Positions 3,036 through 16,170 of a stretch of DNA of 40,626 nt are shown in pieces. The stretch comes from a virus, in IMG/VR virus record IMGVR_UViG_3300017437_000024, positions 1 through 40,626 of that record; one strand, written 5' to 3'. The position numbers and the translations under genes are program-made. Below the pieces are notes generated by a model. It was not told the origin of the DNA. It saw nothing but the letters and a program-made list of their open reading frames with translations, and ran no database searches. The stretch's first letter is position 1. Every line of letters starts with the position of its first letter.

Positions 3036-3769
3036 AAACAAAACAAGAATTAAGTGAACTTATGGGGGAATCTAACATAAGAAAAGTGGTGGCAATTAAG
3101 CTACCGATTGTTAGATTTAATGGTTTGGAGGGCAAGTTTAAGAAGCTGGAATTGACATCGGAAGGTTACGCCGATCCGAAGGATGTCGGTCAGATAATTG
3201 AGGGTGTGATTGTTGGTATCCGTATGCAGTTGGCGGAATACAATAAGAATTATCGTCGGGAAACTAATGAATATGACGCTCCGAGTGAATCGGTCCGACT
3301 TTGGGAGCGGAACGATAAGTCTAGTTTTACACTAGAAGATGGCTTACCAGTCAAGCTCCGGGAAAAATATCAAATGCTTCGTTCAAGGCGGTGGCTTTAT
3401 ATGGTAATCAATGGCGAGTTAGTGAAATTTATGACTAAGGGTTCTAGTTTGGGATATTTGTTTGACTACTTGAACGAGTTTAATAGCTCTGAGCATTTGT
3501 TTGAGTTCAAGACTGTCATGCAACCGGTGCAGGAAGAAGGTAAGCTGGGCAAGTATTGGGCGGTTAATTTCTCCCGAGGTCCGGCGGTCAGCGAGAAAGA
3601 ATTTGAAGTTGTAGCCAAGGAGATGCAGAGATTTCACGAAAACAGACTAGAGTTAAAGAAAAGATACGTCAAGGCAGAATCTTCGGCCGCCCAATCGTTT
3701 AATCAACCGGTAAAAGATGAATTGTCGGAAGCGGAACTTGATGTTAACCCGGAGGATTTACCCTACTAA
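3032..3769 (+). CDS. Possible ssDNA-binding protein, 245 aa
   Basis: Starts inside the stop of the exonuclease gene. The body is a mixed alpha/beta domain rich in K, E and aromatic residues. The C-terminus becomes disordered and acidic (DELSEAELDVNPEDLPY), ending in P-x-D-L-P-Y, much like the acidic, aromatic-ended tails of bacterial SSB (DDDIPF) and T7 gp2.5 through which partners are recruited. With the neighbouring exonuclease this suggests a ssDNA-binding or annealing role. No OB-fold signature can be proven by eye, so this is inference from tail and context. Confidence 0.45.
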   Translation: MKTKQELSELMGESNIRKVVAIKLPIVRFNGLEGKFKKLELTSEGYADPKDVGQIIEGVIVGIRMQLAEYNKNYRRETNEYDAPSESVRLWERNDKSSFTLEDGLPVKLREKYQMLRSRRWLYMVINGELVKFMTKGSSLGYLFDYLNEFNSSEHLFEFKTVMQPVQEEGKLGKYWAVNFSRGPAVSEKEFEVVAKEMQRFHENRLELKKRYVKAESSAAQSFNQPVKDELSEAELDVNPEDLPY

Positions 3770-3771
3770 AT

Positions 3772-4062
3772 ATGGAAAATCTAAATCTTAATCAATATAT
3801 GGATTTTATCGGAACGAAGATGGACATAGAAGACAAAATAAAGGAATTGGACCCGATAATTGTAGAGTTCTTTAAGAACAGGGGTGTGCCTCCTGGACAA
3901 GCGGTGTTTATGTTATTTGCTTATCTAGCTTCTTTTATAGTTAGAATAAAATCTAGAGAAACGGAACCGATTCTTCAGGAAGTTTATGAGATTTTTTTCA
4001 CTGGTTTTGAAGAAATATCAAAGAAAATAGAGGAAATTACTGTCAAGCTAAAAAAACTATGA
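3772..4062 (+). CDS. Hypothetical protein, 96 aa
   Basis: Starts 2 bases after the upstream stop and overlaps the next gene by 4 bases. The middle has a hydrophobic stretch (AVFMLFAYLASFIV) that may be a membrane or buried helix, and the C-terminal third is an amphipathic helix (EEISKKIEEITVKLKKL), probably a coiled coil. No family recognised. Confidence 0.55.
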   Translation: MENLNLNQYMDFIGTKMDIEDKIKELDPIIVEFFKNRGVPPGQAVFMLFAYLASFIVRIKSRETEPILQEVYEIFFTGFEEISKKIEEITVKLKKL

Positions 4063-4301
4063 ACTATCAACCCAAGCCCGATGAGTCTACTAGGACAACA
4101 ACTAATCATTTATGCGTTCATTGCGGAGAGGATATGGGAATACGTCCGAGAATGTTCTGCAACTTATGCGGCAACAAGGCGGGGCGTGATAAAATGCATG
4201 AGGAGAATGAAAAGCTGGGTATAAAATGTCAAGCCTGTAATAATCCCGATTCTCCGTTCAATAAGTTGCGGAAAAAAGTCGCTACCCAGAAAAATGACTG
4301 A
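4059..4301 (+). CDS. Zinc-finger protein with three CxxC pairs, 80 aa
   Basis: CVHC, CNLC and CQAC pairs are spaced as in tandem zinc ribbons (roughly residues 19-22, 34-37 and 58-61). The tail is short and basic. It overlaps its neighbours by 4 and 1 bases, between the recombination genes and the HNH nuclease. Nucleic-acid binding is plausible. The function is unknown. Confidence 0.6.
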   Translation: MNYQPKPDESTRTTTNHLCVHCGEDMGIRPRMFCNLCGNKAGRDKMHEENEKLGIKCQACNNPDSPFNKLRKKVATQKND

Positions 4302-4732
4302 TGAGAAAAAGTCCTTTGAGAGCCAAGGGCAATTCAGAACTTTCCAAATGCAAGGATAGAATACAGAAACTGTTGACTATGATTGTTAGGAAAAGGGATG
4401 GGGAGTGCGTATTTGCTCCTTATCCCGAAACTGGGGCTTGCTCCGGCCCGACTGCGGCGGATCACATAATTTCAAGGGCAAGGGCGGCGACCTACGGAGA
4501 TTTACGAAATGTTATTTGCGTCTGCCAAAGACACCATATTTACTGGAAACCGCAGAATCCGGTTATGTATGTGGATATAGTTAAAGGAATAGTTGATTGG
4601 GAATGGATAGAAAAAGCGGAAAAAGACAGAGGAGGACATAACTTTACTCTCTGGGATTGGCAGAAAATTGAAATGAATTTAATCCAAGAATTAAAAAAAT
4701 ATGAAAATATTGATAGGAATACCAACTTATGA
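4301..4732 (+). CDS. HNH/NinG-like endonuclease, 143 aa
   Basis: The core is C...C followed by AADHIIS, then N-x-I-C-V-C-Q-R-H-H, the beta-beta-alpha metal order of HNH/NinG recombination nucleases. The basic N-terminus and the central DHIISRARAATYGDLRN stretch resemble lambda NinG, which acts in recombination near replication genes. Its position after the exonuclease and SSB candidate suits such a role better than homing. It overlaps the next gene by 32 bases. Confidence 0.7.
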   Translation: MRKSPLRAKGNSELSKCKDRIQKLLTMIVRKRDGECVFAPYPETGACSGPTAADHIISRARAATYGDLRNVICVCQRHHIYWKPQNPVMYVDIVKGIVDWEWIEKAEKDRGGHNFTLWDWQKIEMNLIQELKKYENIDRNTNL

Positions 4733-5303
4733 TCGGCGGCTGGATATTGAACTAGTGCGTTGTTTGATTGATTTGGAGCGGAACAAAAAATTTGAATTAG
4801 ACTATGTTTTTCCTGTATCTAGTCATCTATCTCGTAATCGGAATTATTGTTGTAAGCAGTTTTTAGCTGGAGATTATAATGCTTTGTTATTTTTGGACTC
4901 AGATATTGGCATAACTGATCCGGAATTTTTAAGTAAGATGATAGATACCGCCTATCGTTTGGACGCTCAAGTAGTTGGCGGAGCTTATCTTATGAAGAAA
5001 TTAAACGAAACTATTTACATAGCCGGTAACAAGGTGAGTGAGAAATATGATAATATAAGAAAAAGACCGGAAAAGCCGGAGATCGTGAATGCGGTTGGGA
5101 CCGGCATAATGTTAATTTTTAGACAAGTCTTAGAAAAGATGCCGGAGCCGTGGTTCACAATCGTGGACGGGAAGGATTTGTTTGTCATGCCGGAAGATTT
5201 TGAGTTTTGCAGAAAGGCCGAAGAATTGGGATATAAAATAGCCATTGAGCCTAGATTTGATACAAATCATTATGGACTTTATAGCTGGCATCACGCTGTA
5301 TAA
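4701..5303 (+). CDS. Small GT2-like glycosyltransferase, 200 aa
   Basis: The N-terminus MKILIGIPTYDRR is the usual nucleotide-sugar-binding start of GT-A enzymes, and FLDSDIG (about residues 64-70) holds the DxD-like metal motif. Later GTGIMLI and PEDFEFCRKAEELG match the acceptor-side part of this phage-common family. It is shorter than typical GT2 enzymes (about 250 residues). It is a diverged paralogue of the gene at 5373. Sited between a recombination nuclease and a DNA methyltransferase, it might act on DNA bases, but protein or polysaccharide substrates are equally possible. Confidence 0.75.
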   Translation: MKILIGIPTYDRRLDIELVRCLIDLERNKKFELDYVFPVSSHLSRNRNYCCKQFLAGDYNALLFLDSDIGITDPEFLSKMIDTAYRLDAQVVGGAYLMKKLNETIYIAGNKVSEKYDNIRKRPEKPEIVNAVGTGIMLIFRQVLEKMPEPWFTIVDGKDLFVMPEDFEFCRKAEELGYKIAIEPRFDTNHYGLYSWHHAV

Positions 5304-11597: not shown

Positions 11598-12350
11598 ATG
11601 GATAACAAGCCAAATTCTGCCCCAGTTATCCCATCGGGAACGGAGCCGACCGTGTTCGGAACAGCTTCGTATCCGGCGGGAGTTGGACAAGCAGGAAACT
11701 TGCCCAGTGCGGTTAAGTCAGAGTCTGAGGTTCCAAAGGAACTCCAGCCAAGCCAAACAGAAGCCCCGAAAGGGACAACTTATGATGAGCTTGCGGCGAA
11801 GAAAGGTTTTAAGTCACAGGACGACCTAGCGTTGGCCTATGCGAACCTTGAACGCCAATTTACACAAGATCGTCAAGAAGGTCTGGCGGAGTTGTTAAAA
11901 TCTCGTGGCGAAGATCAGCAACCAGTCGTTCCCCCTCAGGAGGTAACACCTCAGGAAGTCGTGACGGAGAGCGATGCGTTAAGGGTTGTTGAGCAAGTAG
12001 TCAGGAAATTTACCCGCCCACTTGAAAACCAATTAGCCCTACAGCAATTGATGTATAAAAACCCAGATGTTGAGCAGTTTGCTGGACAAATGGCGTCTAT
12101 CGTCAAGAGCAATCCAGGTATTAGTTGGGAAGTGGCTTACAAAGCGGCCAAGTTTGACGCTCTAGGTGCGACATCTAGAGAAGAAGGGAAAAAAGAAGCC
12201 TATCAGACGATACAGCAGAAACAAGCTGTAACGACCAGTCCGGCCAAGCCGGTGGCAAGGGACACTCGTCCCATTGATGAACTGATAAAGGATAAAAGTA
12301 TTCCTTTCAGTGAAGTGCAGAAGATTATGAAAGAGCGATTCTCTCAATAA
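11598..12350 (+). CDS. Scaffold protein (probable)
   Basis: A 250-residue, acidic, Gln/Glu/Pro-rich protein immediately upstream of the major capsid gene, the usual place for the scaffold. The N-terminal third is disordered, the middle helical (DDLALAYANLERQF, ALRVVEQVVRKF) and the C-terminal end charged and helical (SEVQKIMKERF), as in scaffolds that bind coat protein by a basic C-terminal helix. It lacks protease motifs. Assignment rests on position and composition. Confidence 0.65.
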   Translation: MDNKPNSAPVIPSGTEPTVFGTASYPAGVGQAGNLPSAVKSESEVPKELQPSQTEAPKGTTYDELAAKKGFKSQDDLALAYANLERQFTQDRQEGLAELLKSRGEDQQPVVPPQEVTPQEVVTESDALRVVEQVVRKFTRPLENQLALQQLMYKNPDVEQFAGQMASIVKSNPGISWEVAYKAAKFDALGATSREEGKKEAYQTIQQKQAVTTSPAKPVARDTRPIDELIKDKSIPFSEVQKIMKERFSQ

Positions 12351-12379: not shown

Positions 12380-12540
12380 ATGCCTGATCTAGGATTAGGT
12401 GCAATAACAGCGGTTAGTGATTTAACTAACACTGTAAAGACCTACTACGACAGGATGCTTTTGGAAACACTGGACCCTGAAACCAAGTTTTACCAGTTTG
12501 CGGTTAAAAAGCCTTTGCCGAAGGGCGAAGGAAACGCGGT
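12380..12540 (+). CDS. Major capsid protein, exon 1 (N4-gp56 family)
   Basis: The first 53 codons plus two bases of the capsid gene: MPDLGLGAIT, VKTYYDRMLLE and LPKGEGNAV match the N-terminus of N4-gp56-type coat proteins (typically VKTYYDKRLLE...PLPKGEG). The reading frame then breaks from homology at 12540/12541, exactly where a 7-bp P1 helix of a group I intron predicts the 5' splice site (ACGCGGT with GCCGCGT, U-G pair at the junction). Joining 12540 to 13184 makes one 357-codon frame plus stop. Confidence 0.88.
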
Positions 12541-12599
12541 AGTAAAAGATGATTCCTCTTGTGCCGCGTATAAATCTTTTCTAAATACCTTGGAAAATC

Positions 12600-12628
12600 T
12601 TGTTTATTACAATTTGAAGTGGTATAAT
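12600..12628 (+). promoter_or_regulatory. Intron-internal promoter for the LAGLIDADG gene
   Basis: TTGTTT (12600-12605), a 17-base spacer and TATAAT (12623-12628) with an upstream TG. The -10 ends 7 bases before the ATG at 12636, so a leaderless endonuclease transcript is predicted, separate from the capsid mRNA. Confidence 0.5.
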
Positions 12629-12635
12629 GGAATGT

Positions 12636-13127
12636 ATGGACAAGATAACCAGAGGCAAGCTTTCAGATTTTGAGATTGGATATATAGCGGGTTTAGTTGA
12701 CGGTGAGGGTTGTATTGGAATACATAAGCATACAGATAATAGGGGAAAATCAAGATTACATTATTTGTATGTAGTAGTATCAAATAACAATCCAAAATGC
12801 CTAGAATTTCTTAAAAAGAATTTTAATGGTTGGATAATCAAAAGAAGGCAAAAAGAAAATTGGAACATTAATTATAAGTGGGGTTTGAGAAGTGCTAGAG
12901 CCCGACAACTACTTGAAATTATTTATCCACATTTAATTCTTAAAAAAGAACAGGCTTTATTAGGAATAGAGTTTGATAATAATAAGATTAGATATAAATT
13001 ATCTGACGAAGAATGGAACAAAAGAGAATCTTATTATTTAAGGATGCGTCAATTAAATTCTTTATATACTAAAATAAAACCTCATCATTTGAAATTGCAG
13101 CCGCAGAGACTAAACGAAAAGACATAA
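12636..13127 (+). CDS. LAGLIDADG homing endonuclease (intron-encoded)
   Basis: A 163-residue protein with one LAGLIDADG helix (IGYIAGLVDGEGCIGI), followed by an alpha/beta core and ILKKEQALLGIEF, the layout of single-motif enzymes that work as homodimers (I-CreI type). It would cut intronless capsid genes to spread the intron. An in-frame ATG at 12627 would add MEC, but it overlaps the -10 box, so 12636 is preferred. The last codons overlap the catalytic core: the R element is coding, and the stop TAA lies in P8. Confidence 0.9.
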   Translation: MDKITRGKLSDFEIGYIAGLVDGEGCIGIHKHTDNRGKSRLHYLYVVVSNNNPKCLEFLKKNFNGWIIKRRQKENWNINYKWGLRSARARQLLEIIYPHLILKKEQALLGIEFDNNKIRYKLSDEEWNKRESYYLRMRQLNSLYTKIKPHHLKLQPQRLNEKT

Positions 13128-13183
13128 TGAAAATTATGAAGCGATAGTCCGATCTTGCAAGTGATTGCAAGTTAACAAAAATG

Positions 13184-14096
13184 TCAATGGAATCGTCCAC
13201 GACGTCTGGGCTTGGGTCAGAAGGTTACCGCCGGCATTAAGCCATCAGCGAGCGAGCTATCTACGACAAGAGTGTCAGCGAACATTGAAGTCTATGGTGG
13301 TTATGTTTTGCTTGAAGACTTGGTGCAGTTGACTTCGGTTAACGATGTCCTTGATATCGCTACTACCGAGTTGGCTAAGCAAGCGGCCGAAACCTTGGAC
13401 CGAGCCATCATGCACTCCGTCATTTTCTTTGATGATCCGAATACTGCGACCTCAGCTGTTCACATAGTTAAGTCGTCTGCAAGTTTGTTCATTTCAACAA
13501 ACGCATTTGTGGCGAATACCTATAGCAACACCCTGATCGCTGTTTCCGATGTCCGAAGATGTGCGGCGGAATTGAGAAGGCGTAATGCTTTAACCGTTGA
13601 TGGCCAAAACTATATTGGTATCATTCATCCAGTTGTTAGCGAAGATTTGCGTGCAGATGCCACGTGGCAGAACTGGCACCAATACACCACCCCCGAATTT
13701 CTATACAGGGGTGAGGTAGGTAGAGTAGAAGGCGTGCGTTTCGTAGAATCAGTCCTTACTCCGGTATCGGCTGGCTCCGGAAACGGCAATGCTATCTCTG
13801 CTTCTCCCGGTGCTTCTGCGATGGCTTACGGCACGGTAATCTTTGGTCGTGGTTTCTATGGTGCGACAGAGTTGGACGGTGGAGTTAAGACCTTCCTCGT
13901 GGACGGTCCCTCCAAGTCTGACCCATTGAATCAATCCACCACTTATGCTTGGAAGGCAAATTTTGCATCAAAAGTGCTTAATGTGTCTGCCGGCTTGGTG
14001 CTGTGGACTGGTTCCGGTGATACCTTTAGTGGTTCTTCTGTTTCTACTCGTGAAACTGCCGGCTTAACTTTGAGTGCGGTTGCTACCGCTACTTAG
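13184..14096 (+). CDS. Major capsid protein, exon 2 (N4-gp56 family)
   Basis: Starts at the third base of a valine codon after splicing, giving VVQWNRPRRLGLGQKVTAG, then YGGYVLLEDLVQLTSVNDVLD and LAKQAAETLDRAI, diagnostic of the N4-gp56 capsid family (HK97 fold). The full spliced protein is 357 residues, normal for the family. It forms the icosahedral shell with the portal and the scaffold. An in-frame TTG at 13212 could allow unspliced initiation, but the N-terminal arm would be lost. Confidence 0.9.
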
Positions 14097-14165: not shown

Positions 14166-14211
14166 AGTAAGAGTAGGTGGGAAGCTATCTCACCTACTCG
14201 GAACTATTATG
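14161..14211 (+). promoter_or_regulatory. Hairpin enclosing the HNH start codon
   Basis: ATAATAGT (14161-14168) pairs with ACTATTAT (14203-14210), and GAGTAGGTG (14171-14179) with CACCTACTC (14191-14199), around an 11-base loop. The ATG (14209-14211) lies in the base of the outer stem. A transcript started at about 14172 would lack the outer 5' arm and leave the ATG free, whereas read-through from the capsid gene would hide it. Confidence 0.65.
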
Positions 14212-14616
14212 TTTAAGAAGCATACTAAGGAGTCAAGATTAAAGATAAGTTTGGCGATGAGGGGAAGAAAATTAAGTTTGGAACACCGTCTTAAAATAAG
14301 TAAAAGTCAAAAGGGTAAAAGTTATCATAAAAGATTAAGAAGCGGCGGAAAATCAATTAGTTCATGTGGATATTCTTTGATTTGGAAACCCAACCATCCA
14401 CTTGCACAGAAAAAGGGCTATATCTTAGAACATAGATTAGTTATGTCAGAATATATTGGAAGAAACTTGAAAAGTGATGAGATTGTCCATCATATAAATG
14501 GAAATAAATTAGATAATAGAATTGATAATTTGCAATTATTATCTAAGAGTTGGAAGGGCGGAATTAAATTGAATGCCGAATGTCCGAATTGTCATTATAA
14601 ATTTCATCTTCAATGA
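14209..14616 (+). CDS. HNH homing endonuclease with NUMOD domain
   Basis: A 135-residue protein. The N-terminus has two NUMOD3-like repeats (HTKESRLKISLAMRGRK, LEHRLKISKSQKGKS), DNA-binding modules of homing enzymes. The HNH core follows (EHRLVMSEYIGR, IVHHINGNKLDNRIDNLQLLS) and the tail has CPNC. It is free-standing, just after the capsid stop; I found no second intron around it. Start 14209 was chosen because the upstream frame overlaps the capsid gene and lacks domain content. Confidence 0.85.
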   Translation: MFKKHTKESRLKISLAMRGRKLSLEHRLKISKSQKGKSYHKRLRSGGKSISSCGYSLIWKPNHPLAQKKGYILEHRLVMSEYIGRNLKSDEIVHHINGNKLDNRIDNLQLLSKSWKGGIKLNAECPNCHYKFHLQ

Positions 14617-15192: not shown

Positions 15193-16170
15193 ATGAAGAT
15201 TTGTATTACTGGAGCCGCAGGCTTCATTGGGTCAAATTTTGTGCATTACATGGCTGAGAAATATCCCAGCTATGATTTTGTTTTAGTTGATAAATTAACC
15301 TATGCCGCCAGTGAAAGAGGTTACTCTTGGGATAACGTTGATTGTTTCCGAAGCAGTCCTCGTTTTCGTTTCGTGGAGGCGGATATTTGCGATGAGGAAG
15401 CGATGTTTGACGCAATGTATATGTGTGATGCGGTAGTGAACTTTGCCGCAGAGTCTCATGTTGGTAGAGCGATTGTCAACCAGAAGCGGCACGTCCAGTC
15501 AAACATTGTCGGAGCGGCCAATATTGCGGCAGTGGCTACCAACTATCACATGCGGATGCTCCACATCTCTACCGATGAGGTTTATGGTGAGATAGAAAAG
15601 GGTAGATTTTCGGAGGAATCCCCTCTCCGGCCGCAGAATAGATACGCCGGCTCAAAGGCGGCGGCGGAAGTCTTTACATATTCATTCTTATTCCCACCTC
15701 ATAATTTAGATATTCTATATACACGTTCGGCTAATAATTTCGGCAAGTTTCAATCACAAGAAAAGTTTGTCCACGTTATTGCGGAGTGTATTGCTAAAAA
15801 CAGGCCGATTCCTATTCATGGACAGGGTGAGGAGGTCAGAGATTGGTTGTTTGTCATGGATAATTGCTCCGCAGTGGACTTAGTTCTTCATCAAGGCAAG
15901 CGGGGCGAGTTCTATAATATCTCAGCCCATAATGAGATGAGTAATGCCGCTTTGGCGATCTTGGCTATTAAACATTTTGGGGGAACGATTAAAAACACAC
16001 CGAATCGTCCGGGTAATGATGCTCGTTATGCTTTGGAAACGCATAAATTGGAAAAGCTAGGCTGGCTTCCGTTGGCACAAGGCAAGGATTTTGAAAAGTA
16101 TATGGTCAATACTTTGGAATGGTATATCAAGAAATATAAAAAAGAACATGAAGTATCTGCAATCCGATAG
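15193..16170 (+). CDS. RmlB-like dTDP-glucose 4,6-dehydratase
   Basis: A 325-residue short-chain dehydratase. NAD-binding TGAAGFIG (6-13), active-site T127-D128-E129 in STDEVYG, and Y151/K155 in YAGSK match RmlB, which converts dTDP-glucose to the 4-keto-6-deoxy sugar. RNQP-like QNRYAGSK and the later RDWLFVMDN also fit. First gene of a 12-kb sugar cluster. A related epimerase function on UDP sugars cannot be excluded. No RmlA or RmlC is seen, so the host would have to supply the activated glucose. Confidence 0.85.
   Translation: MKICITGAAGFIGSNFVHYMAEKYPSYDFVLVDKLTYAASERGYSWDNVDCFRSSPRFRFVEADICDEEAMFDAMYMCDAVVNFAAESHVGRAIVNQKRHVQSNIVGAANIAAVATNYHMRMLHISTDEVYGEIEKGRFSEESPLRPQNRYAGSKAAAEVFTYSFLFPPHNLDILYTRSANNFGKFQSQEKFVHVIAECIAKNRPIPIHGQGEEVRDWLFVMDNCSAVDLVLHQGKRGEFYNISAHNEMSNAALAILAIKHFGGTIKNTPNRPGNDARYALETHKLEKLGWLPLAQGKDFEKYMVNTLEWYIKKYKKEHEVSAIR

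Follow-up and report, generated by a model that had tools for sequence, protein, structure and literature searches.

In the virus record analysed here (40,626 bases, called the window in the following), the gene for a major capsid protein (MCP) of the N4-gp56 family is interrupted by 643 nucleotides that hold a reading frame of their own. This raises the question of what the insert is, and whether the capsid gene is broken or becomes whole again at the level of the transcript. Judging from the sequence, the insert is almost certainly a mobile group I intron that encodes a LAGLIDADG endonuclease and interrupts the major capsid gene of this tailed phage. A group I intron in this gene had been proposed in the initial annotation, and the proposal is supported by intron-free relatives, the core helices, covariation among related introns and the LAGLIDADG open reading frame.

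Exons, splice junction and intron-free relatives

The exons, the intron and all its parts are on the plus strand. Exon 1 (12380..12540) comprises 53 codons and two nucleotides, as defined by the joined frame and by alignment with eight relatives, exon 2 (13184..14096) includes the stop codon, and the group I intron (12541..13183, 643 nucleotides) separates the second from the third base of codon 54 (GT|T, valine). Exon 1 ends with ...AACGCGGT (12540), the intron ends with ...AAAAATG, its terminal G being at 13183, and exon 2 starts with TCAATGG. The GC content of the intron is 30.5%, in comparison to 48.6% for the exons. Both exon frames are intact; unspliced, the frame of exon 1 reads into the insert and reaches a stop codon at 12673, after 97 amino acids. 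When the 643 nucleotides are removed and the exons are joined in silico, the result is an uninterrupted N4-gp56 major capsid protein of 357 residues with matches to TIGR04387 (residues 13-323, E = 5.9e-46, 157.2 bits with a cut-off of 60) and to phrog_1357 (E = 1.6e-45). As 3' splice site, 13183 is preferred because the in-frame G six bases downstream would delete a conserved Gln-Trp. The splice sites and the restored frame of 357 residues are exactly those of the initial annotation, borne out by the TIGR04387 match and the intron-free relatives; the peptide that it had predicted at the junction, VVQWNRP, is one residue off: the joined frame reads GEGNAVQWNRP.

A scan of IMG/VR identified eight relatives with 67-75% identity. 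All eight have the MCP as a single continuous gene, and their proteins align to the joined protein across the junction without a gap. A wider profile scan returned 14 loci, namely the same eight contigs and six loci with 26-43% identity, and in none of these 14 is the gene interrupted at the position of the window's intron (two of them, L021 and L022, reach contig ends downstream of the site).

The neighbourhood of the capsid gene has further features. The upstream neighbour (11598-12350) is a candidate scaffold gene by position, and its only match is a weak one, to a family whose function is not known. A free-standing homing endonuclease gene of the NUMOD3 plus HNH_3 type (14209-14616, plus strand) immediately follows the stop codon of the capsid gene, and none of the eight close relatives has a match to it; together with the reading frame in the intron, two different homing endonucleases thus bracket the capsid gene. 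Also adjoining the head genes is a gene (15193-16170, plus strand) that we take, from its N-terminus, to encode an NAD-dependent sugar epimerase/dehydratase; it is about 74% identical in five of the eight relatives.

Group I core and endonuclease frame

P1 is formed by the last nucleotides of exon 1 (ACGCGGU, 12534-12540) and an internal guide (GCCGCGU, 12563-12569), with seven base pairs and a U.G pair at the splice site. P3 pairs UCUUUUC (12575-12581) with GAAAAGA (13116-13122) in seven of seven perfect pairs. The catalytic core (5' strand of P7, 3' strand of P3, P8 and 3' strand of P7) occupies 13106..13154: P7 consists of GACUA (13108-13112) and UAGUC (13145-13149), pairing at all five positions, and P8 (13123-13138) is a clean hairpin of six base pairs. 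P9 (13154-13171) is a clean hairpin too (CUUGCAA/UUGCAAG). P4/P5 and the 5' strand of P6 are tentatively placed at 12589..12623, from an MFE fold in which the loop holding the ORF was shortened and by analogy with the cores of the family. P6 may be formed by UGGU (12620-12623) opposite GCCG (13100-13103), an equally tentative pairing that, given the family cores, replaced a previous candidate (12628-12630 with 13101-13103).

Of the helices that the initial annotation had considered drawable, P1, P7, P8 and P9 are present, while P10 is weak, with only three pairs that follow a U-U mismatch; P3 and the endonuclease frame were missing from its list. P1, P3, P7, P8 and P9 have no mismatch at all. 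By chance, a P1 of seven base pairs arose in 73 of 20,000 dinucleotide shuffles and the arrangement of P3, P7 and P8 in four of 2000 shuffles; P1 and this core jointly were found in none of 2000.

The insert encodes a LAGLIDADG homing endonuclease of 166 amino acids (12627..13127, with ATG at 12636 as an alternative start), which matches PF00961 (LAGLIDADG_1; E = 1.4e-7, 32.8 bits, cut-off 23.1) and phrog_5046 (E = 1e-20) and, with residues 18-67, PDB entry 4lq0 (E = 1.2e-4). Read from the sequence, the LAGLIDADG motif is intact, including its acidic residue. The frame is looped out of P6: it begins beside P6, traverses P7 and P3 and ends in P8. The P7 and P3 strands make up its final codons, so that ribozyme and coding sequence overlap. 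A pattern scan confirmed no close relative of this endonuclease among eight candidates from IMG/VR and 37 from GTDB. Homologues from named phages were found in 47 records, all with less than 60% identity; six of their neighbourhoods were inspected, five of which are annotated, and the annotated endonucleases look free-standing. In Stenotrophomonas phage StenR_269 (L011:3962-5423), an 'intron homing endonuclease' with 29% identity to the window's lies directly upstream of an N4-gp56 MCP; this was the one neighbourhood scanned with Rfam, and no Rfam intron was found in it.

A covariance-model search had been proposed as a check on the intron. On 1 kb, the Rfam model Intron_gpI (RF00028) did match (31.8 bits, E = 4.5e-6), but below its gathering score of 50, which is a database threshold and not a biological feature. 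Parts of the endonuclease frame fill the P3-P6 region when Rfam aligns the sequence, and P3 to P6 are misaligned; the score is probably under the threshold because the endonuclease frame splits the core. The window intron thus has P3, P7, P8, P9 and the conserved P7 sequence in common with Intron_gpI, but scores sub-threshold with its reading frame. Searching the whole record with RF00028 gave no match, and neither did a whole-window scan for any Rfam family, group II included, at the gathering score or at E<=1.

The core motif GAGACTAAACG..ATAGTCCGATC is present in 23 stretches of IMG/VR, 15 of them distinct by core sequence. Where related introns have no reading frame at this place, P3 lies about 60-90 nucleotides before P7, and the bases on either side of it are those also seen in the window; the position of P3 in the window matches, adjoining the same AAA / CUAA and GAGACUAAAC motifs. 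In the core structure of nine related introns, 14 of 26 pairs are changed on both sides, and compensatory changes in related phage introns affect P3 and P6. The covariation score of the nine is 0.520, in comparison to 0.204 for shuffled data (0/500). A covariance model built from these nine introns (R1) ranks the window intron top in the whole window, with 36.5 bits and 14.5 bits for the next hit, a score that is partly circular as the motif used to select the loci behind the model came from the window itself; the same model gives a chance-like 26.3 bits in coding sequence of L021. When the intron DNA was compared with phage records, seven had short matching stretches (4-8% of the query, E 0.2-0.7), which we take as chance.

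Predicted splicing and homing, and other readings of the insert

From this anatomy and the empty sites of the relatives, both seen directly, we infer how splicing and endonuclease cutting would proceed. In the transcript, the guide GCCGCGU would pair with the end of exon 1 to form P1 with its U.G, a guanosine held in P7 would attack after U12540, and exon 1 would be ligated to U13184, directly behind the terminal G13183 of the intron, so that the capsid protein of 357 amino acids is restored. The LAGLIDADG protein of the P6 loop has a single motif and would probably act as a homodimer; where a co-infecting phage has a capsid allele without the intron, the protein would cut this allele at the site, and the intron would then be copied in.

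The presence of an endonuclease frame inside the insert, and of a second, free-standing HNH gene just after the capsid gene, could also mean that a free-standing endonuclease gene has broken the capsid gene, with no splicing and with either a dead gene or two protein fragments as a result. We consider this very improbable, since the ends of the insert coincide exactly with the splice sites predicted from the U.G of P1 and the terminal G, which restore the protein length of the relatives, the P3/P7/P8/P9 core is present and neither exon frame is damaged. About as improbable is a genuine group I intron that has lost its activity in this phage: the intact exon frames, the lack of mismatches in P1, P3, P7, P8 and P9 and the intact LAGLIDADG motif all speak against it, as does the fact that the MCP is essential, although the sub-threshold Rfam score, the weak P10 and a short P4 would fit. 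Conserved genes are also interrupted by inteins and group II introns, which likewise encode proteins for homing or mobility, but there is next to no chance that the insert is one of these. An intein is ruled out by the length of 643 nucleotides, which is not a multiple of three, and by the stop of the exon 1 frame inside the insert at 12673; no group II intron was matched in the whole-window Rfam scan, which is a weak argument, as the same scans missed the group I core too.

Introns in the capsid genes of other phages

The mobile group I intron of the window is in itself an ordinary one; of greater interest is the pattern across phages. The initial annotation had described introns in capsid genes as much rarer than those in phage polymerase, nrd or terminase genes. 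This has no support: MCP introns have been published, and an MCP family is the commonest flank of the introns sampled here. For the MCP intron of mycobacteriophage LittleE, splicing was shown by RT-PCR and N-terminal sequencing in a publication that also cites phage Tuc2009 (PMC3706429). Like the window's, the LittleE intron was found by comparison with intron-free relatives, follows an exon ending in U, ends in G and has a LAGLIDADG-like reading frame; it differs in being an 819-bp insertion in a different phage with the frame on the opposite strand (PMC3706429), whereas the window has its frame on the sense strand, looped out of P6 and overlapping the core, and the window intron is predicted to splice from sequence. 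In crAss-like phages of the Delta and Zeta groups, the MCP is among the core genes that harbour group I introns (PMC7886860): as in the window, the introns that split the MCP contain endonuclease domains, and one MCP is in five fragments, but these phages are Crassvirales and the introns were found via signature protein domains, mainly of endonucleases. A further study reports capsid genes in 31% of the neighbourhoods of T5orf172 endonucleases (PMC10448857). In the literature, which was covered in part, we found no survey of phage group I intron host genes that ranks capsid first.

Two samples of introns were available. In the 15 distinct introns with the core motif of the window, major head protein ORFs are among the scanned flanks of nine (L032, L036, L037, L039, L041, L042, L043, L047 and L052; L041 and L047 are weak, and L032 and L052 count as flanking only, with placement of the intron within the gene not established; the flanks of L035 and L040 were left out). 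Portal ORFs flank two of the 15 (L038 and L048). The second sample was selected by a different core motif and blind to genes: of at least 120 stretches, 80 were listed and 68 are distinct after dropping 12 with identical cores, and each locus contributed its first core with the neighbouring ORFs, one on either side if there was one, which gave 128 flanks. Among the matches listed, the top family is phrog_1357, the MCP family of the window (13 of 128 flanks), followed by the terminase family phrog_38 (seven flanks) and the MCP families phrog_267, phrog_1328, phrog_283 and phrog_334 (6, 5, 5 and 4); these counts overlap, as an ORF may have matches to more than one MCP family, and are raw numbers, uncorrected for how common N4-gp56 genes are in IMG/VR. 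No polymerase or ribonucleotide reductase family is among the best 25 of 146 flank families. An MCP flank does not prove that the intron is inside the MCP gene. Counted by record, phrog_1357 is present in 11 of 50 and in 10 of 32 records, and tblastn with the endonuclease over the loci retrieved by intron patterns gave 13 matches in 12 loci, including L043, L062 and L101, whose records also contain pieces of an N4-gp56 MCP. Phage MCP introns are thus already known, and they are not rare in the environmental phages sampled here.

In four loci (L060, L067, L111 and L114), an N4-gp56 gene is in two pieces that are separated by an intron core. In profile coordinates, the gene is split at about 68 in the window, at 65|66 in L067, between 55 and 62 in L060, at 252|254 in L111 and near 321 in L114. 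According to sequence reading and P1 pairing, the introns of L067, L101 and L065 are directly after the last glycine of GxG; the window intron (GNAV|QW) is eight nucleotides further on than the homologous splice position of L067 and L101, and for L060, where P1 has five base pairs, alignment by hand gives QFAV|KK as the site. L067, L101 and L043, all from IMG/VR, share with the window the N4-gp56 capsid family and a LAGLIDADG-type reading frame in the intron, and L043 in addition the core motif and an endonuclease with 27% identity, but all three differ in the exact site and have a diverged intron. L043 had been a candidate for an intron at the window's own site; this was dropped, as the exons place its intron about 45 residues further on. 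The L043 capsid gene (reverse strand, about 3300-4900) is in at least three pieces, with a phrog_5046 endonuclease and several group I cores, two of which score 70.7 and 60.7 bits with model R1. Introns are also present in capsid genes of another family, phrog_14242 (L036:3142-3315, minus strand, and L039:1306-1350); the site in L036 (GNLYH|QPV, P1 of seven base pairs) seems, from its sequence, to fall in the part of the fold where the window's site also lies.

Several N4-gp56 introns are within about 12 codons of one another, a lead from a cluster recognised post hoc in a small sample of possibly related loci. It is conceivable, though we lean slightly against it, that the MCP, that of N4-gp56 above all, is a leading and not a rare target of group I introns in environmental phages and that the gene segment for the residues immediately before and at the conserved GxGxxxxW is a hotspot that different introns have entered several times (in the window, L067, L101, L065 and L060).

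For the phage of the window, this corrects the annotation of a capsid gene that would otherwise come out of gene calling in two fragments, and it provides a clean example whose predicted splice sites are exact. Capsid genes split by introns may, as the wider sample suggests, be common among environmental phages, and capsid-based surveys may therefore miss or truncate some of them. For the RNA polymerase intron of phage PhiPA3, an advantage over co-infecting rivals has been shown (PMC11620839). Introns like that of the window offer a route to asking whether endonucleases that target capsid genes favour their own phage over co-infecting rivals.
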